This document shows positions 3,401 to 19,667 of a stretch of DNA of 33,778 bases, in pieces (position 1 is the first letter of the stretch; each line of letters begins with the position of its first letter). Source of the stretch: Candidatus Doudnabacteria bacterium RIFCSPHIGHO2_02_FULL_43_13b (GTDB taxonomy: Bacteria > Patescibacteriota > Doudnabacteria > UBA920 > O2-02-FULL-48-8); NCBI GenBank assembly GCA_001777655.1, contig MFER01000012.1, positions 60,723 to 94,500 of the forward strand, read 5' to 3'. A program made the translations under genes and the position numbers. Under the pieces are notes generated by a model, which made no database searches, was not told the DNA's origin, and saw only the letters and a list, made by a program, of their open reading frames with translations.

Positions 3401-3448
3401 TCCCCTCCCTCACCGGCCACCGGGGGCTGGAGGTTAGGAGGGGTAGAG
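3401..3448. repeat. Partial unit of the DUF559-flanking palindrome family
   Basis: TCCCCTCC at 3401 pairs with GGAGGGG near 3437-3443. The segment ends with GGGGTAGAG, the same right end as the complete units at 3454 and 3943. The middle differs (CCGGCCACCGGGGG), so it is a diverged or partial copy. Confidence 0.5.
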
Positions 3449-3453
3449 TAGTT

Positions 3454-3574
3454 CTACCACCCCGCCTTGCCTGACCCTTAAGTTCCCCTCCTATTCTAGG
3501 AGGGGAAGAACTGCAACCCAAACTAAAGCGCTAGGATTTCTCCCCTAGAATAGGGGAGATTAAGAGGGGTAGAG
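3454..3574. repeat. Inverted palindrome doublet, copy A (REPIN-like)
   Basis: Unit of about 121 bp with two hairpins. The first (3483-3507) has an 11-bp stem TTCCCCTCCTA/TAGGAGGGGAA with loop TTC; the second (3539-3559) has a 9-bp stem TCTCCCCTA/TAGGGGAGA with loop GAA. Loop and inner stem of one are the reverse complement of the other (CTATTCTAG versus CTAGAATAG), so the unit is itself an inverted pair. Ends are CTACCACCCC and GGGGTAGAG. A near copy follows the DUF559 gene. Confidence 0.85.
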
Positions 3575-3578
3575 ATAC

Positions 3579-3938
3579 ATGCCATATTTATATAACAGTC
3601 AACGATTGAAGCTTAGGCGCAAGAGCTTTCGTAATAATATGCCACAATCCGAGCAAGTACTCTGGTATTATTTGAAAGGCAAGAATCTTAAGGATTATAA
3701 GTTCCGGAGGCAATACAGCGTTGGGAAATATATACTCGACTTTTTCTGTCCTAAGCTAAGATTGGCTATAGAATTGGATGGTGATTCTCATTTTATTGAT
3801 GATAGGGCGAAAGTTTATGACAAAAACCGGCAGAAATTTTTATCTTCTCAAAATATTACAGTTATTCGATTTACTAATACAGAGATTTCAGAGAGCATAG
3901 ATGGTGTGATTGATAAAATTTCAAAGCATCTCCCTTGA
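3579..3938 (+). CDS. Stand-alone DUF559 endonuclease-like protein
   Basis: A 119-aa protein of normal length for the DUF559 family, which belongs to the PD-(D/E)XK/very-short-patch-repair-like nucleases. Visible family features: a PQSEQVLW segment (residues 22-29), KFRRQ (41-45), and the core YILDFFCPKLRLAIELDGDSH (51-71) that would supply D54, E65 and D67 plus H71; then VIRFTN near 95-100. The gene starts 5 bp after one palindrome doublet and stops 5 bp before another, so coding sequence and repeats form one compact cassette. No partner methylase or restriction gene is nearby. DNA cleavage is expected from the family; a role in spreading the flanking repeats is my inference. There is no clear Shine-Dalgarno; a TGGTATAAT extended -10 at 3347-3355 could drive it. 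Confidence 0.9.
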   Translation: MPYLYNSQRLKLRRKSFRNNMPQSEQVLWYYLKGKNLKDYKFRRQYSVGKYILDFFCPKLRLAIELDGDSHFIDDRAKVYDKNRQKFLSSQNITVIRFTNTEISESIDGVIDKISKHLP

Positions 3939-3942
3939 GTCT

Positions 3943-4062
3943 CTACCACCCCGCTTGACCTTATTCTCAAGTTCCCCTCCTATTCTAGGAGGGGAATAAC
4001 TGCAACCTAAACTAAAGCGCTAGGGTTTCTCCCCTAGAATAGGGGAGATTAAGAGGGGTAGA
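3943..4062. repeat. Inverted palindrome doublet, copy B
   Basis: Direct-orientation near copy of unit A: CTACCACCCCGC at the left, hairpins at 3972-3996 and 4028-4048 with the same stems, and AGGGGTAGA at the right. Only scattered substitutions and a few indels separate A and B. Confidence 0.85.
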
Positions 4063-4078
4063 TGATAGGGTCTTGTCT

Positions 4079-4140
4079 CTACCACCCCGCTTAGCCTAAT
4101 TCTCAAGCCCCTCCTATTCCAGGGGGGAATAGCTGCTGCT
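4079..4140. repeat. Partial palindrome unit, copy C
   Basis: Third copy of the left half: CTACCACCCCGC, then one hairpin with CCCCTCCTATTCCAGGGGGG, where substitutions weaken the stem. The right half is missing. Confidence 0.75.
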
Positions 4141-6783: not shown

Positions 6784-6799
6784 GCTTAACTAATCCTTA

Positions 6800-6841
6800 A
6801 CCCCGTTAGAGGTAATCTCTCTAACGGACCTCTAACGGGGT
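6800..6841. repeat. Perfect 14-bp inverted repeat between two surface genes
   Basis: ACCCCGTTAGAGGT (6800-6813) and its reverse complement (6828-6841) with TCTCTAACGG as a third half-copy in the loop. There is no T tract, so it is not a typical terminator. The CCCGTTAGA core equals the ends of the elements at 15940 and 17340. Confidence 0.7.
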
Positions 6842-6856
6842 AAATAATTAACTATT

Positions 6857-8641: not shown

Positions 8642-10393
8642 ATGGCTTTCGATCCCGAACAATTGAAAAAAGCTTTGATTGGCAAAAAAATTGTCACCGC
8701 CGCCAGTTGGACCGGGTTTTTAGACGAGGCCAAAAAGAAACGGGAAGCGGTCGAGGATTTACTCATTGATAAGAAAATTATTGATGAAGAAAAATTAACC
8801 CAGATTGCTTCAGCTTTTTTTGACGTGGAATATGTTGATTTGAAAAAGATGGGCCAGATTCCCAAAGAAGTTTTATTGTTGGTTCCAGAACCAATCGCCA
8901 GGCGGCACGAAGTGATCGCGTTTGGCAAAGAAAAAGACAAGTTGAATCTGGGGATGACAGACCCGAACGATTTGGAAACCCGGGACGCGATTAAGAAAAA
9001 AACTGACTTGCAAGTAATCCCTTTTTTGGTCAGTCGCAGTTCGTTGGAGCATGGGCTGAAACAATATCACACCAGCTTGGAAGCCGAATTTGCCAAAATT
9101 GTTTCCAAACAAGAAAAGGGCGAACTGACGGATTCCGCTTCGGTGACCGAGAAATTGAAGGAAATGGCCGAGGAAATCCCGGTAGTGCGCGTGGTGGACA
9201 CGCTTTTGGAGTACGCGATTTTCGAAAAAGCGTCGGATATTCACATCGAACCGCAAGAAAAAGAAGTCATGGTTCGTTACCGGATTGATGGCGTATTGCA
9301 TGATGTTATGACTCTGCCGAAAGTGATTCAACCGGCTTTGATTGCCAGAATTAAAGTCATCAGCAATCTTAGAATCGATGAGCACCGTTTGCCGCAAGAT
9401 GGGCGGTTCAAGGTTCAGAAAGACGAGTATAATATTTCTTTCCGCGTGTCCGTCATCCCGGTATTTGACGGGGAGAAAGTCGTCATGCGTCTGCTGGATG
9501 AATCAACGAAAGCGTTAACATTGGAAGAACTGGGGTTCATCCATCGAAACTACGAAGTGATTGTTCGTAATGTCAAAAAACCGCACGGCGCGCTTTTGGT
9601 CACCGGTCCCACCGGCAGCGGCAAATCAACCACGCTTTATACGATTCTTTCCATGCTCAACACCAAGGCCGTGAATATTTCGACGATCGAAGACCCGATC
9701 GAGTATCGGATCGAAGGGATCAACCAAATGCAGGTCAATCCTAAAATCGGTTTAACTTTTGCCATGGGTTTGCGCTCCCTCCTTCGTCAGGATCCCAACA
9801 TCATCATGATCGGAGAAATTCGGGATTCTGAAACCGCCGAAGAAGCGGTGCACGCAGGACTGACCGGCCACGTGGTGCTTTCCACCTTGCACACGAATAA
9901 TTCCGCCGGGGCGCTTCCCAGGCTTTTAGATATCGGAGTGGAGCCTTATTTGATTGCTTCAACGGTCAATGCCGTCGTCGGTCAGCGTTTGACCCGTCAA
10001 GTCTGTCAGGATTGCCGCGAAGAAATCAAAATCGAACCCGAATATGAGTCTGATTTAAAAAAAGAATATAACATCGATCATTTGCTGGAGGTCATGAAAC
10101 GGGAGAAATTTATCCCCCCCAAGACTAAAAGTTTGACGGAGCTGACTTTTTATCGCGGCGCCGGGTGTGATAAATGCGGCCATTCCGGCTATCGCGGACG
10201 GAAAGGCATATTTGAAGTGCTGGAAGTCAGTTTGTCCATTCAGGATTTGATCATGAAACGGGCGCCGACCAGTCAGATTCAGGACAAGGCGATTGAAGAA
10301 GGTATGATTATGATGTGGCAGGATGGATTTATCAAATGCATTCAAGGTAAAACCACGATTGAAGAGGTGGTGAGAGTAAGTAAGGACCAATAA
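8642..10393 (+). CDS. pilB: Type IV pilus assembly ATPase PilB
   Basis: The cytoplasmic hexameric ATPase that powers pilus extension. The 583-aa length is normal for PilB/GspE. Order: N-terminal MshEN-type domain (about 1-145), linker, then the ATPase core with Asp-box region DIHIEPQ (199-205), Walker A GPTGSGKST (322-330), Walker B IIMIGEIRD (387-395), His box GHVVLSTLHTN (409-419), and a zinc site of two CxxC pairs (C455/C458 and C509/C512). All key motifs are intact. The ATG follows a TATAAT directly, and no Shine-Dalgarno is seen. It opens the pilus locus, followed after 95 bp by pilC. The locus has no secretin gene, which suits a cell without a classical outer membrane. Confidence 0.97.
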   Translation: MAFDPEQLKKALIGKKIVTAASWTGFLDEAKKKREAVEDLLIDKKIIDEEKLTQIASAFFDVEYVDLKKMGQIPKEVLLLVPEPIARRHEVIAFGKEKDKLNLGMTDPNDLETRDAIKKKTDLQVIPFLVSRSSLEHGLKQYHTSLEAEFAKIVSKQEKGELTDSASVTEKLKEMAEEIPVVRVVDTLLEYAIFEKASDIHIEPQEKEVMVRYRIDGVLHDVMTLPKVIQPALIARIKVISNLRIDEHRLPQDGRFKVQKDEYNISFRVSVIPVFDGEKVVMRLLDESTKALTLEELGFIHRNYEVIVRNVKKPHGALLVTGPTGSGKSTTLYTILSMLNTKAVNISTIEDPIEYRIEGINQMQVNPKIGLTFAMGLRSLLRQDPNIIMIGEIRDSETAEEAVHAGLTGHVVLSTLHTNNSAGALPRLLDIGVEPYLIASTVNAVVGQRLTRQVCQDCREEIKIEPEYESDLKKEYNIDHLLEVMKREKFIPPKTKSLTELTFYRGAGCDKCGHSGYRGRKGIFEVLEVSLSIQDLIMKRAPTSQIQDKAIEEGMIMMWQDGFIKCIQGKTTIEEVVRVSKDQ

Positions 10394-10488
10394 AAATTCA
10401 AAAGGCAAAATGCAAAAATCAAAATTGCAATTTAAAAATAAAAAGTTTTTAATTTTAACTTTTGACTTTTAACTTCTGATTTATTTAT
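10394..10488. repeat. AT-rich imperfect inverted repeat between pilB and pilC
   Basis: Left AAAATTCAAAAGGCAAAATG and right TTTTAACTTTTGACTTTTAA are roughly complementary. Similar CAAAATTCAAAAATCAAAAG text occurs at 8188-8240 and inside the start of the prepilin gene at 12111, so it is a family of low-complexity repeats at gene borders. Confidence 0.45.
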
Positions 10489-11706: not shown

Positions 11707-12111
11707 ATGAAAAAGGGCAAAAAATTGTTACGCGAACAAAAAGGCTTGAGCCTGGTGGAGGTTGTTGTTAGTATGGGGGTGCTGGTGGCTTTGTTTGCCT
11801 TATATGCGGTTGCCTTAAATACTACCACGCTGACGAAAAAGCTCCGCTATCAGAATGTCGCTTATCATGTGGCCAACAAAAAAATCGAAGAATTGCGCGG
11901 CGTGGCTTTCGTTTCGCTTCCGCCTTCCGGCACGATCAGCGACTCTTTGCTTTCTCAAATTCCGGCCGGCTCCGGGAGTTTTACGGTTGTGGACTATTCT
12001 GAATTTTCGGGACTTAAGGAAATTACAGTTACCGTGACTTGGAACGAGGGCGCAATAGCGAAACAAGTGCTGGTCAAAACCCTGGCTGGCAGCGGAGGGA
12101 TAAACCCTTAA
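11707..12111 (+). CDS. Type IV prepilin-like protein (minor pilin, PilV/GspI-like)
   Basis: A 134-aa protein with a basic leader MKKGKKLLREQKG and a class III cleavage site KG|LSLVEVVVSMGVLVAL, where Glu at position 5 of the mature protein is present. The hydrophobic N-terminal helix is followed by a short beta-rich domain. NKKIEELRGV after the helix is typical of PilV/GspI-type minor pilins, which form the tip complex that starts pilus assembly. It starts 3 bp after pilC and its stop overlaps the next gene by one base (TAATG). Unlike the next two pilin-type genes, its leader shows no repeat-derived sequence. Confidence 0.88.
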   Translation: MKKGKKLLREQKGLSLVEVVVSMGVLVALFALYAVALNTTTLTKKLRYQNVAYHVANKKIEELRGVAFVSLPPSGTISDSLLSQIPAGSGSFTVVDYSEFSGLKEITVTVTWNEGAIAKQVLVKTLAGSGGINP

Positions 12112-12680
12112 TGAAAATTCAAAATTCAAAAATCAAAAGTCAAAATTTCGGGTTTACCCTGATTGAAATGATTATTGTGGTGTTTTTGGTAGGTTCGCTT
12201 TCATTGGTGGTCGCCAGTTTGTTCTTTGGTCAGGACAAAATTTATCATACTCAAATGATGGAATTGGGGGTTACCAATGACGCGCGCATGGCCCTGGACG
12301 ATATTGACGCTTTTGTTCGAATGACCGATGTGCTTGTTTCTTCCCAAGGCGGTTACACGCTTGGGGCGCAGACCCTGATTTTGCAAATTCCTTCCATTAA
12401 CGCTTCCAGTCAGATTATCCCCGCCACCTACGATTACGTGGTGTATAGTTTAAGCGGATCGAATCTTGATCGGATAATCATGCCGGATGATGCCAGCAGC
12501 AGAGTGAGTACGACGAAAAGAGTTGCCTCCCGTGTTAACGGTCTGGTGTTTACTTATGACAACGCCAACCCTAATCTAGTGAAGTATGTAACCACTAATA
12601 TCACGACGCAGGAGGCTTATCCAGGCGTGCCCAACAAGTCAATCACTCTTTCGTCCAAATCAAAATTAAGGAACAACTAA
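12111..12680 (+). CDS. Type IV prepilin-like protein (PilW/GspJ-like)
   Basis: The track starts at a TTG at 12039 inside the previous gene; the ATG at 12111 overlaps the upstream stop as TAATG and gives 189 aa with a proper leader. The leader MKIQNSKIKSQNFG is followed by FTLIEMIIVVFLVGSLSLVVASLFF; cleavage after G14 and Glu5 are clear. DNA of the leader (AAAATTCAAAATTCAAAAAT) is the same AT-rich repeat type found between genes here, so the leader seems to be made of repeat sequence. Mature part: DARMALDDIDAFVRMTDVL then beta-rich, as in PilW/GspJ minor pilins. Its end touches the next ATG by one base. Confidence 0.86.
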   Translation: MKIQNSKIKSQNFGFTLIEMIIVVFLVGSLSLVVASLFFGQDKIYHTQMMELGVTNDARMALDDIDAFVRMTDVLVSSQGGYTLGAQTLILQIPSINASSQIIPATYDYVVYSLSGSNLDRIIMPDDASSRVSTTKRVASRVNGLVFTYDNANPNLVKYVTTNITTQEAYPGVPNKSITLSSKSKLRNN

Positions 12681-14161
12681 TGAAAATTCCAAATAACAAA
12701 TTTCGAATTTTAAATTCTGAACAAGGCCTGCCCGCCACTGCACCTGCCCGACATGCTTCGCAAAGCGAGGCAGGCGGGCGCAGGGCGTTGCAGGCGGGCC
12801 AAATGATTATTACCGTCGTTATTTTTGCGTTGATTGCCATGGTCGCCATTTCTTCTTTGGTCGGCTATATCATGCTGCAAGTCCGCGCTCAGCGGCAGGC
12901 GGTTGGCCAAGTGATGGGGCTAAACATCGCCGAAGCAGCGATCGAAACGGCAGTTTGGAAATTAAACAACCAACCGGGATACGACGGGGAAATTGGAATA
13001 TCCTATGCCGGCGGGGTTTATAATGTGACTATCTCCAGTCTTTCCGGAAGCAGCAAATTGATCCGGGCTGATGTATATGTTCCAAACGCCTTGAATCCGC
13101 AAGCCAGGCGCTCGGTGCAGGTACAAGCCACCATAGGGATAACGACCATCGGATTTAATTACGGCGTGCAGGTGGGCAATGGCGGCTTGGAGATGAGCAA
13201 TAGCGCCAAGATTATCGGAAATGTTTACTCAAACAGCAATATAGTGGGGACTAATTCCGCTCGCATCCAAGGGACGGCGATTGCAGCCGGAACCAGCCGG
13301 ATTGACGGGATGGATGTGGACAACAATGCCCAGGCGCGCACTATCCGAGGGAGCTCTAATATTACCGGCAACGCGACTGTTTCCGCATTGCAGAGTTCCA
13401 CCGTGACCGGCAACGTGGTGGCTGACAGCATTTCCAGTTGCACCATCGGGGGGACTGCCATATATGACACCAGGAGCTCCTGTTCCGTCGGCGGGGCGAC
13501 CACTACGCCTAACCCGAACCCTTACCCGCAGGCCTCGGTTCTGCCATTGCCGATTTCCGAGGCGCAGATTGCGACTTGGGAAAACGAAGCGGCCGCCGGC
13601 GGGGCTGTCGGGAATCAGATTTTCAGCAGCGGGACAAGAAACTTAGGACCGAAAAAAATCAATGGGGATCTAATATTGAGCAACACAGCCGAATTGGTTG
13701 TAACCGGGACGTTATGGGTCACGGGCGAGGTTCGTCTGAGCAATAGCGCTATTCTAAGATTATCCTCTGGTTTCGGCTCCCAAAGCGGAGCGGTGGTTGC
13801 CGGGATAAATGAAGATTCATCAGCCGGTTATATTGAAATTTCCAACTCTGCCCAGGTATTGGGTTCTGGAACTACCGGGAGTTATATCCTCATGCTTTCC
13901 CAAAGGGAAGGAGTAGGATCCACCGCAATCAAACAGGACAATAACCCGGGCACGCCAATTTTACACGCTATTTTATACGCCGGGGAGGGGATGATAGAAA
14001 TAGCTAACAGCGCCGCGATGAAGGAAATTACGGCAGAGAAACTCAAAATCAGCAACTCCGCAACCGTCACTTACGAATCCGGATTAGCAGACGCGAATTT
14101 TTCCTCCGGCCCGAGCGGCGGCTGGGAGGTCTTAGACGGCACATGGCAATTATTACAATAA
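12680..14161 (+). CDS. PilX-like pilus protein with repetitive SNSA passenger
   Basis: A 493-aa protein. Residues 16-40 come from an inserted GC-rich palindrome (12725-12800). The hydrophobic helix QMIITVVIFALIAMVAISSLVGYIML (41-66) directly follows G40; a GQ(x)(x)I start is typical of PilX-like proteins, but the usual Glu5 is missing, so peptidase cleavage is uncertain. Then comes GLNIAEAAIETAVWKLN (80-96), a common PilX/PilV-type segment. From about 165 onward short motifs such as LEMSNSAKIIG, ILSNTAELVV, RLSNSAILRL, EISNSAQVLG and KISNSATVTY repeat, as in right-handed beta-helix or bactofilin-like folds. A beta-helix displayed at a pilus tip for adhesion is my inference. Overlaps the previous gene by one base. 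Confidence 0.8.
   Translation: MKIPNNKFRILNSEQGLPATAPARHASQSEAGGRRALQAGQMIITVVIFALIAMVAISSLVGYIMLQVRAQRQAVGQVMGLNIAEAAIETAVWKLNNQPGYDGEIGISYAGGVYNVTISSLSGSSKLIRADVYVPNALNPQARRSVQVQATIGITTIGFNYGVQVGNGGLEMSNSAKIIGNVYSNSNIVGTNSARIQGTAIAAGTSRIDGMDVDNNAQARTIRGSSNITGNATVSALQSSTVTGNVVADSISSCTIGGTAIYDTRSSCSVGGATTTPNPNPYPQASVLPLPISEAQIATWENEAAAGGAVGNQIFSSGTRNLGPKKINGDLILSNTAELVVTGTLWVTGEVRLSNSAILRLSSGFGSQSGAVVAGINEDSSAGYIEISNSAQVLGSGTTGSYILMLSQREGVGSTAIKQDNNPGTPILHAILYAGEGMIEIANSAAMKEITAEKLKISNSATVTYESGLADANFSSGPSGGWEVLDGTWQLLQ
12725..12800. repeat. GC-rich palindromic element inside the PilX-like gene
   Basis: 76 bp of imperfect palindrome between GGCCTGCCCGCC and GGCGGGCC, with CTTCGC/GCGAGG in the centre. 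It is clearly more GC-rich than the AT-rich flanks and is read in frame as residues 16-40. The terminal CCYGCCCGCC also occurs in holA (21773) and in the tRNA-Arg insert (20623). Confidence 0.75.
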
Positions 14162-14199: not shown

Positions 14200-14321
14200 A
14201 TCCTGCACCACTTTTCAGGTTTATGTCGAATCCCCAAGAGAATTTTAAAATAAACTGTCTATTATGCGAGAATTAAAAAAAAGAATCGGATTAGATAAAT
14301 CTGATAAAAGTGGTGCGGGAT
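14200..14321. mobile_element. MITE-like element whose right end encodes a prepilin leader
   Basis: Ends ATCCTGCACCACTTTT (14200-14215) and AAAAGTGGTGCGGGAT (14306-14321) are inverted copies with one mismatch. The 122-bp unit covers the intergenic space and the first 19 codons of the prepilin gene at 14264. The same ends occur at 19565-19667 and in shortened form at 22586-22627. No target duplication is evident. Confidence 0.72.
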
Positions 14322-15928: not shown

Positions 15929-15939
15929 TTTATTATGAA

Positions 15940-16041
15940 TCCCGTTAGAAATACTCATAAGCATCTTGTCAGGGAAAATAATATTCAACGGGAATAATAT
16001 AATTAAATCGCATAATTAACTAATCAAAATTTCTAACGGGA
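15940..16041. mobile_element. 102-bp MITE-like element between pilM and pilN
   Basis: Perfect 13-bp terminal inverted repeats TCCCGTTAGAAAT / ATTTCTAACGGGA. Flanks are TGAA on the left (15936-15939) and TGAA on the right (16042-16045), consistent with a 4-bp target duplication. Its last base A plus the right TGAA makes the pilN start ATGAA. No ORF inside. A near copy (about seven differences in 102) lies at 17340-17441. Confidence 0.88.
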
Positions 16042-16604
16042 TGAAAGTAATCAACCTTCTTCCTAAAAACGAACAAAAAGAAACTAAACTGCAGTTTTTT
16101 GCCCATTCCCAGTTGTCATTTTGGATTTGGACCATCATCAGTTTGACTATTTGTTTAATCCTGGTCTTGGCCGCCCGTTTCTATCTAAACAGCAGCCTAA
16201 CGGCCACTGCGAATGAAGTTGCCAATAAAAGAGAAATTTTAAAATCTTCAGACAACGAGTTATTAAAACAACAGGTTGAAGGTCTAAACCGAAAGATTGC
16301 AGGAATTAATAATTTGCAAAAAAATCATGTTTATTGGTCAACTGCATTAGCTGAATTGGCCCGGTTGTTTGCTTCTGATATCCAACTGGATTTTATCTTT
16401 GTTGATCGGCCAACCGGCAAGATTGAAGTGCAAGGAGTGGCAGCTAATCGAGACAGCGCCTTAAAATTTTGGGCAGACCTTCAAACTTCTTTATATTTTA
16501 AAGATATTAACTTTCCACTTTCTAACCTTGAACGCGCGACCAATGGCAGTTTTACTTTCACCTTTTTCGCCAGCATTGAGAATCTTAAACAACCACTTAA
16601 ATGA
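16041..16604 (+). CDS. pilN: Pilus assembly protein PilN
   Basis: Bitopic membrane protein that links PilM to PilO. 187 aa, normal size. The start MKVINLLPKNEQKE contains INLLP, the conserved PilM-binding motif. One membrane helix follows at about 29-51 (FWIWTIISLTICLILVLAARFYL), then a coiled-coil-like stretch and a small alpha/beta periplasmic-type domain with IQLDFIFVDRPTGKIEVQGVA. The start codon is composed of the last base of an inserted element and its target duplication, so the ATG is conserved although the sequence in front of it is new and has no Shine-Dalgarno. The stop TGA lies in the target site of the next element; originally it overlapped the pilO start as ATGA. Confidence 0.93.
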   Translation: MKVINLLPKNEQKETKLQFFAHSQLSFWIWTIISLTICLILVLAARFYLNSSLTATANEVANKREILKSSDNELLKQQVEGLNRKIAGINNLQKNHVYWSTALAELARLFASDIQLDFIFVDRPTGKIEVQGVAANRDSALKFWADLQTSLYFKDINFPLSNLERATNGSFTFTFFASIENLKQPLK

Positions 16605-16605
16605 G

Positions 16606-16740
16606 TCGGGTAGTAGAAATTTGATATCTCGCCTGCGGCGGGATAAAAAACTAGCGCAAATAACTTAATTTATAATAATAAGCAAACATATGTTAATAGA
16701 CCCTCGATTGTTAATCATTAATCAAATTTTCACTACCCGA
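16606..16740. mobile_element. 135-bp MITE-like element splitting the pilN stop / pilO start overlap
   Basis: 20-bp terminal inverted repeats (left TCGGGTAGTAGAAATTTGAT, right its complement with two mismatches). TGAG flanks both sides (16602-16605, 16741-16744). The left TGAG keeps the pilN stop, the right one with the element's final A gives the pilO ATG. A small GC hairpin (TCGCC TGC GGCGGGA) lies near the left end. No ORF inside. Confidence 0.88.
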
Positions 16741-17327
16741 TGAGAGCTTTGACGCAAAACATTATTATTCTAGTTTGTGGAATGGTAGTAAGTTTGTTAC
16801 TAGTGTTTTTTGGTATTCAACCAATCCTTGATAGTTTAAGCAACCTGCATGATGAAGTCAGGGCCCAGAAAACCGAAGTATTGACTTTAGATCAGCAAAT
16901 TCTTGCATTTAAGACCGCTCAGTCTGATTTATCGAAAGCGGAACGGAAAAGCGATATCGATCAGGCAATCGCTAAGCGCGAACAATTGGTGGAAGCAGTC
17001 AAGGATGTGGAAGCGGCAATTAGTCTGACTAACAGTCAACATACTCTCCAAATTTACGATCAGAATGAACCTGGATTTGCGAAAGAGGCCGCGGTTATTC
17101 CAAACCGCGTAGGTATTACTGAAATTCCTTATACCCTTAATGTTACTAATGATTTTGTGGGATTGTTAAATGTTCTCTCTTATCTGGAGCACTTACCCCA
17201 TTTTACTGAAGTTTCGAGGATTGATCTATCGTCCGAGACCATCCCGGCCGAAGGCGGCAGAGTTATTCGCACCGGTAAGGTTTTTGGCAGCATTAACGGA
17301 GTATTTTTTATGGAATCAGGACAATAA
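16740..17327 (+). CDS. pilO: Pilus assembly protein PilO
   Basis: Partner of PilN in the alignment complex on the outer face of the membrane. 195 aa with a short cytoplasmic tail, one membrane helix (IIILVCGMVVSLLLVFFGIQPIL, about 8-30), a coiled coil (LSNLHDEVRAQKTEVLTLDQQILAFKTAQSDL) and a ferredoxin-like domain (VGITEIPYTLNVTNDFVGLLNVLSYLEHLPHFTEVSRIDL), the usual PilO order. Placed after pilN as in other pilus loci. Its ATG arises at the edge of the inserted element at 16606-16740. A further element starts 12 bp after its stop. Confidence 0.92.
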   Translation: MRALTQNIIILVCGMVVSLLLVFFGIQPILDSLSNLHDEVRAQKTEVLTLDQQILAFKTAQSDLSKAERKSDIDQAIAKREQLVEAVKDVEAAISLTNSQHTLQIYDQNEPGFAKEAAVIPNRVGITEIPYTLNVTNDFVGLLNVLSYLEHLPHFTEVSRIDLSSETIPAEGGRVIRTGKVFGSINGVFFMESGQ

Positions 17328-17339
17328 AGATATTATGAA

Positions 17340-17441
17340 TCCCGTTAGAAATACTCATGAGCATCCTGTCAGTGAAATAATATTTAACGGGAATAATCTA
17401 ATTAAATCGCATAATTAACTAATCAAAATTTCTAAACGGGA
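17340..17441. mobile_element. 102-bp MITE-like element downstream of pilO
   Basis: Near copy of the element at 15940: same left end TCCCGTTAGAAAT, right end with one extra A (ATTTCTAAACGGGA), about seven differences overall. TGAA flanks both sides (17336-17339, 17442-17445). Again the final A and the duplication form the start codon of the next gene. Confidence 0.87.
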
Positions 17442-17713
17442 TGAAGCAGTTTAAATTCAAAAGTTTAAAAATCAAATCCATTTATGCCGAACGTCTTCTG
17501 GCGCTGATTTTTATTATTATTATTTTGTTGGAAGCGCAGCTGCTTTATAGTAAAGTTTATAAGATCTTAGGCACGGAGCCAGATATGGTCCCGGCCGGCA
17601 ACGTGGTCAGAGTAGATCTTTCTGATTACAACCAAACCTTGCAACTTTTGGATCAATTAAAGAGCTTCGTGCCCAAACCTTGGGGGCTGGTTGATCCTAA
17701 CCCGTTTCAATAA
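17441..17713 (+). CDS. Small single-pass membrane protein at the pilP position
   Basis: 90 aa: a basic N-terminus (MKQFKFKSLKIKSIYAER), one membrane helix (LLALIFIIIILLEAQLLYSKVY, about 19-40) and a short outside part with VVRVDLSDYNQTLQLLDQLKSF. It stands where many pilus loci have pilP, and is about half that length with no visible beta domain or lipobox, so I do not call it PilP. It may be a shortened accessory of the PilNO complex. Its start codon sits at the edge of the third element; the following gene starts 3 bp after its stop. Confidence 0.75.
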   Translation: MKQFKFKSLKIKSIYAERLLALIFIIIILLEAQLLYSKVYKILGTEPDMVPAGNVVRVDLSDYNQTLQLLDQLKSFVPKPWGLVDPNPFQ

Positions 17714-19564: not shown

Positions 19565-19667
19565 ATCCAGCACCACTTTTGACGACAAAATAAATACTAG
19601 TCATTAAACCACTCTATAGATTAATCTAAAAATTAAATATTATTTCCAGACAAAAGTGGTGCTGGAT
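19565..19667. mobile_element. 103-bp MITE-like element, ATCCAGCACCACTTTTG family
   Basis: Perfect 17-bp terminal inverted repeats ATCCAGCACCACTTTTG / CAAAAGTGGTGCTGGAT. The interior is AT-rich with no ORF. It is the most intact copy of the family that also touches the prepilin at 14264 and the end of holA. No clear target duplication. Confidence 0.85.

Follow-up and report, generated by a model that had tools for sequence, protein, structure and literature searches.

MITE-like palindromes with duplicated targets on gene starts in Patescibacteria

In Candidatus Doudnabacteria bacterium RIFCSPHIGHO2_02_FULL_43_13b, whose genome comprises 776.5 kb in 17 contigs, the genes pilN and pilO are separated by a palindrome that is bordered by the sequence ATGAG at each end. 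pilN has the tail AAATGA and pilO opens with ATGAGAGC. How did this palindrome come to lie between the two genes, and how do both of them remain intact? We addressed these questions in a window of 33,778 nucleotides, part of one contig, and in related genomes. Features of the locus are listed in Table 1; gene starts throughout are ORF calls.

Table 1. Palindromic elements and genes around the pilN-pilO junction (positions in the window)
Feature	Position	Strand	Remarks
Left ATGAA copy of the family A element before pilN	15935..15939	+	Read directly
Family A element, 101 bp	15940..16040	+	TCCCGTTAGAAAT...ATTTCTAACGGG; pilN ATGAA begins at the next base
pilN	16041..16604	+	ORF ending TGA; Pfam PilN E=0.001, below curated cut-off
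Left target copy ATGAG	16601..16605	+	Read directly; contains pilN TGA (16602-16604) and the former pilO start
Focal family B palindromic element, 134 bp	16606..16739	+	TIR TCGGGTAGTAGAAATTTGAT / ATCAAATTTTCACTACCCG(A)
Right target copy ATGAG	16740..16744	+	Its ATG is the pilO start
pilO	16740..17327	+	ORF from ATG; T2SSM-like E=1.4e-4, below curated cut-off
Left ATGAA copy of the family A element after pilO	17335..17339	+	Read directly
Family A element	17340..17440	+	Right arm TTTCTAAACGGG; ORF 17441-17713 begins at the next base with ATGAA

A palindrome in the pilN-pilO overlap

A sequence-only reading of this DNA had proposed that the element splits an ATGA stop/start overlap while both codons are kept. 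The arrangement of the junction agrees with that proposal, with the pilN stop in the left copy of the repeat and the pilO start in the right copy. The duplication can be read either as four base pairs (TGAG, with terminal inverted repeats TCGGG...CCCGA) or as five (ATGAG). The inverted repeats pair with one conserved A.C mismatch and one G.T wobble. As RNA, the stretch folds with a z-score of -4.2 relative to shuffled sequence, and none of 200 shuffles folded as well; as single-stranded DNA the z-score is -2.15. The element is not a chance palindrome, because the genome holds 14 further related copies and relatives have element-free sites.

We compared the junction using pilO orthologues from 11 genomes of the same family. 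It reads ATGA in six of them (L049, L051, L053, L055, L057 and L058), GTGA in one (L050) and TAATG in another (L059), and the genes overlap by 17 nucleotides in two more (L052 and L054). Ten of the 11 relatives thus overlap without an element, as expected from the earlier proposal of an insertion, with target duplication, into a former overlap. Unrelated spacers were found in none of the 11. In the remaining genome (L056) the junction consists of ATGA, then TCCCGTTAG...TTAACGGG, then ATGAG, which is an independent element of a different family (A) at the same site. From these junctions, the overlap was probably ancestral and was entered twice, by families B and A. The junction between pilO and the next gene is also ATGA in several relatives.

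It is plausible from the reading frames that direct ATGA coupling between pilN and pilO was lost at this copy, since the frame opened by the left ATG closes after seven codons (MSRVVEI, then a stop) and does not read through the element. The two ATGs could nonetheless be brought close to each other by a hairpin in which the element is looped out.

Element families and their placement

Three families of similar build (A, B and C) are present in this genome. The pilN-pilO element belongs to family B, with arms around GGTAGTRRAAATTTGAT. A gene start lies within the duplicated flank in 14 of its 15 copies in this genome, and an ORF start does so in 24 of 30 copies when relatives are included (binomial p 4e-9, with the TATG words of starts and intergenic DNA as the reference). 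Family B occurs in both orientations relative to the gene. Its flanks differ between sites but agree on the two sides of a copy in either orientation, examples being TATG, CATT, TTGA and ATGAG. The focal TGAG/ATGAG duplication differs from the TATG that is usual in this family, and we count this, like the missing read-through frame of the focal copy, against our main reading. The arms covary around the conserved A.C mismatch (515 paired cells, compared with a shuffle maximum of 508). The closest copies are genomic neighbours: pairs less than 5 kb apart are 94% identical, and others 55%. In one region of 3.2 kb (contig C6, 58872-62094; L025 and L026) three family B elements on one strand are 97-98% identical, each on a gene start.

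Copies of family A, TCCCGTTAGAAAT...ATTTCTAACGGG, measure about 100-120 bp and are dispersed across Patescibacteria. We scanned one genome per species with arms and spacing only, in a pattern without the target bases; this returned at least 118 stretches, nearly all of them, among the matches listed, from Patescibacteria. Also among the matches listed, an ORF begins at the base after the element in 100 of 123 copies, counting ORFs that span at least 50 codons or run off the contig (p 1e-28, with ATGAA words as the reference). By comparison, an arbitrary ATG within these loci begins an ORF of this kind 30% of the time. About 14-19% of copies among the matches listed are off called starts and weigh against our main reading; several of the 23 copies without an ORF at the next base are at contig edges or have starts shifted by two bases. 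Presence is patchy, with exact arms in six of 145 genomes sampled evenly from the phylum. The orientation of family A is fixed relative to the gene, as interior alignments gave 107 strong forward pairs and no reverse pair.

The flanking repeats of family A have the form ATGNR (ATGAA, ATGGA, ATGCG, ATGAG and ATGCA). Identical 5-mers flank 100 of the 113 sites with TG in both flanks, among the matches listed. Every one of the 100 identical repeats located at starts has a purine as its fifth base, compared with 56% at starts generally, and we found no further motif in the sequence context outside the 5-bp target. ATG itself is not required, as one copy (L167) lies in a split GTGA overlap and is flanked by GTGAA at either end.

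The sequence-only reading had suggested a search for other ATGA overlaps parted in this way, and they do occur. Three family A copies split one in this genome (C13 near 3605, C16 at 29454 and C6 at 67399), as do 13 of the 100 start-sited copies across Patescibacteria among the matches listed, and relatives contain further examples beyond these 13. The split overlap is one instance of a wider tendency to lie on start codons, a point absent from the earlier reading; the elements before pilN and before the gene after pilO share it. Placement on start codons is far above the expectation from available words.

Family C, TCCCGCACCACTTTT, is mostly intergenic with TTTA/TAAA repeats, and no copy in this genome has a start codon in its duplicated flank. 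Generic scans of the genome for terminal inverted repeats plus direct repeats recovered start-sited ends that were essentially only A-like or B, where one scan was blind to family A (no +1 shift) and the other to family B (inner mismatch).

Several other arrangements were observed. Family A elements are in tandem or close together at four loci (L227, L231, L133 and L155), where a start codon again adjoins an end. At L158, L160, L247 and L255 the flanks are inverted (TTCA left, ATGAA right), perhaps by inversion between two copies. Within the window, a CCCCGTTAGAGGT palindrome at 6786-6850 is related to family A ends, and two further places in the genome contain it as a hairpin of 28-29 nt. The genome has about 17 family C palindromes (ATCCNGCACCACTTTT, with TTTA/TAAA flanks), including those near 14203-14318 and 19568-19664 of the window, and in four family C copies a gene stop codon is within or beside the flank. 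A repeated block at 3429-4127 carries CCCCTCCTATTCTAGGAGGGG palindromes and two 121-nt stretches that are 92% alike. AAAATTCAAAAATCAAAATT-like low-complexity repeats are found at several gene junctions (10389-10440, 12110-12147 and 12679-12716).

Hairpin structure and leader frame of family A

The arms pair in 42 family A copies that have a GC-rich second stem (K-type copies). This stem is GGACGC/GCGTCC, and GAACAC/GTGTTC and GATCGC/GCGATC forms with changes on both sides also occur. The alignment of the 42 copies contains 30 two-sided cells, compared with 7.3 after shuffling and a maximum of 21 after sliding. At pair 5-140 the left-repeat purine is matched to the start-codon U, as A-U in 26 copies and G.U in 16. 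This pair may account for the purine rule at the fifth base, and it would presumably act as single-stranded RNA or DNA.

At orthologous Kaiserbacteria-type starts, the element interior is 84-94% identical, compared with 52-62% at codon position 3 and approximately 70% in upstream DNA. Constraint is the simplest reading of this conservation, the alternative being repeated insertion or conversion. In other orthologous family A pairs the interiors have diverged, with arms and left copies retained. The interiors of family A copies have in many cases diverged too far to fit a recent burst, and orthologous starts retain their elements. Both facts count against our main reading, since many copies may be old, constrained and not now mobile.

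In the frame that begins at the left ATG, the arms of family A are free of stops and, when the length is in register, the frame ends TAA-CGGG-ATG. K-type copies in register have 10 stops in 860 codons of this leader frame and 66/830 and 49/830 in the others (pooled, 10/860 against 115/1660), in counts uncorrected for shared ancestry, although pairwise identity of the interiors is only about 30%. Other in-register family A copies show 39/859 stops in the leader frame compared with 92/826 and 82/826. One might suppose that the elements are genes and that the leader encodes a conserved small protein (M-x-PVRN...), as 29 of 45 K-type copies have a left frame without a stop as far as the right end, where 20% is expected. 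However, identity in the middle is alike at the three codon positions (0.32, 0.28 and 0.30), indels of one nucleotide break the frame between orthologous copies, and out-of-register copies show no depletion of stops. Based on the codon-position pattern and the frame-breaking indels we rejected small-protein coding, which is very improbable. Amino acids show no conservation by codon position, so it is the open path that appears to be kept rather than a peptide.

Origin and relation to known elements

We consider it probable that families A and B are mobile, MITE-like, non-autonomous palindromes that are found almost only with a duplicated target on a gene start and are tolerated by translation. 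They would form one group of Patescibacteria elements whose duplicated target is almost always on a start codon. At the focal locus, a 134-bp palindrome would have inserted into the ATGA overlap and duplicated it, so that each gene retained its codon. Such duplication of the start would make insertion tolerable, as the upstream gene retains its stop and the hairpin's foot supplies the downstream gene with a new start. The left start opens a short leader frame across the whole element to TAA-CGGG-ATG in many family A copies; a ribosome from the old start could melt the hairpin, terminate four bases short of the new one and then reinitiate. Transposition would account for the repeats as well as for the empty sites and the dispersal of copies. 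No transposase for these elements and no autonomous copy was found, which weighs against this reading; in the DNA searched for family A arms 220-3500 bp apart there were only two forms of 275 nt, neither with a long ORF.

The placement on starts could reflect targeting or selection, and each is possible. Insertion may occur at many short AT-rich sites, with survival only at gene boundaries, among which starts are the tolerated places. We regard this as possible but lean against it. The genome is about 83% coding (by a crude caller), and Shine-Dalgarno-like sequence is scarcer at element sites (6/113 compared with 99/660, p 0.004), as if insertions that severed the ribosome site were lost, which argues for some selection. 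Yet non-start intergenic words outnumber those at starts (ATGAA 303/146, ATGNR 1407/363, TATG 837/323) and few copies lie there, and the mostly intergenic family C indicates that intergenic insertion is tolerated. The occurrence of family C outside starts argues against selection alone. That the hairpins actively select start codons rather than a DNA word alone, and remain silent through start duplication and the family A leader frame, is a bolder proposal that we hold to be rather unlikely; under it, the G.U-tolerant pairing of the left flank with the start codon on the sense strand would point to recognition of a single-stranded nucleic acid.

A somewhat stronger competitor, although still short of an even chance in our view, is that these are domesticated 5' regulatory RNA hairpins, kept, regardless of origin, because a hairpin at the start codon controls translation. 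The fixed orientation of family A, its covarying second stem, the conservation of its interiors above that of third codon positions at certain orthologous starts, and the depletion of stops in the leader frame are all consistent with such a role. Family B, however, occurs in both orientations, the presence of elements is patchy and pilO lacks one in most relatives, while high identity at orthologous sites could also reflect repeated insertion or conversion. Rfam at the gathering score matched only three tRNAs in the window. A single-strand transposase (Y1, IS200/IS605 or RAYT-like) as the mover, with the right ATGNR a part of the element rather than a duplication, is improbable. Guide-based recognition would fit the conserved imperfect palindromes, the orientation of family A fixed relative to ATGNR and the link of the CACGAACAC subfamily to ATGCG (7/7 in the alignment). 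But family B has variable flanks that are alike on the two sides whichever orientation it takes, which a carried right end would not produce. We rejected a Y1/RAYT mobiliser since this genome has no Y1_Tnp and the Y1 genes of relatives are flanked by other palindromes.

The mobile, MITE-like reading can be set against known systems. MITEs are short and non-coding, with terminal inverted repeats, flanking direct repeats and many dispersed copies (PMC10969869). Families A and B likewise have terminal inverted repeats, variable target repeats (ATGAA/ATGGA/ATGCG/ATGAG in A, TATG/CATT/TTGA/ATGAG in B) and, at pilN/pilO, an empty site in relatives. They differ in lying on start codons, in outer bases of the inverted repeats that vary yet remain complementary, and in that no parent IS was found; the term 'start codon' occurs nowhere in the text of that review. 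Rickettsia palindromic elements are inserted in frame within ORFs and can be fused to the product (PMC10969869). These too are mobile palindromes compatible with translation, but our copies lie at ORF starts and duplicate the start codon, and an open in-frame fusion was seen in none of the 32 non-K family A copies of that register. REP/BIME sequences are small imperfect palindromes with compensatory stem changes, and REP ends can supply ORF stop codons (PMC3733652). Families A and B share the compensatory changes, but are larger and have matching, variable direct repeats, where IS200/IS605 and RAYT elements lack target duplication. The literature that we covered, with few subscription papers or preprints, contained neither start-codon-sited mobile palindromes nor MNPVRN. 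The elements are thus MITE-like in build and similar to Rickettsia palindromes in translational tolerance, and differ from both in location.

As a rule, mobile elements do no harm only when they lie at a distance from genes; here the sites occupied come down to a single functional position, the start codon, in bacteria with small genomes and mostly without Shine-Dalgarno-like sites. Gene callers may extend element-bearing genes by false N-termini (M-x-PVRN...). The elements also provide natural insertions for testing translational coupling and reinitiation. Targeted placement would imply some machinery that recognises translation starts at the DNA or RNA level, and selected placement would show how a dense genome can take up inserts within its operons.
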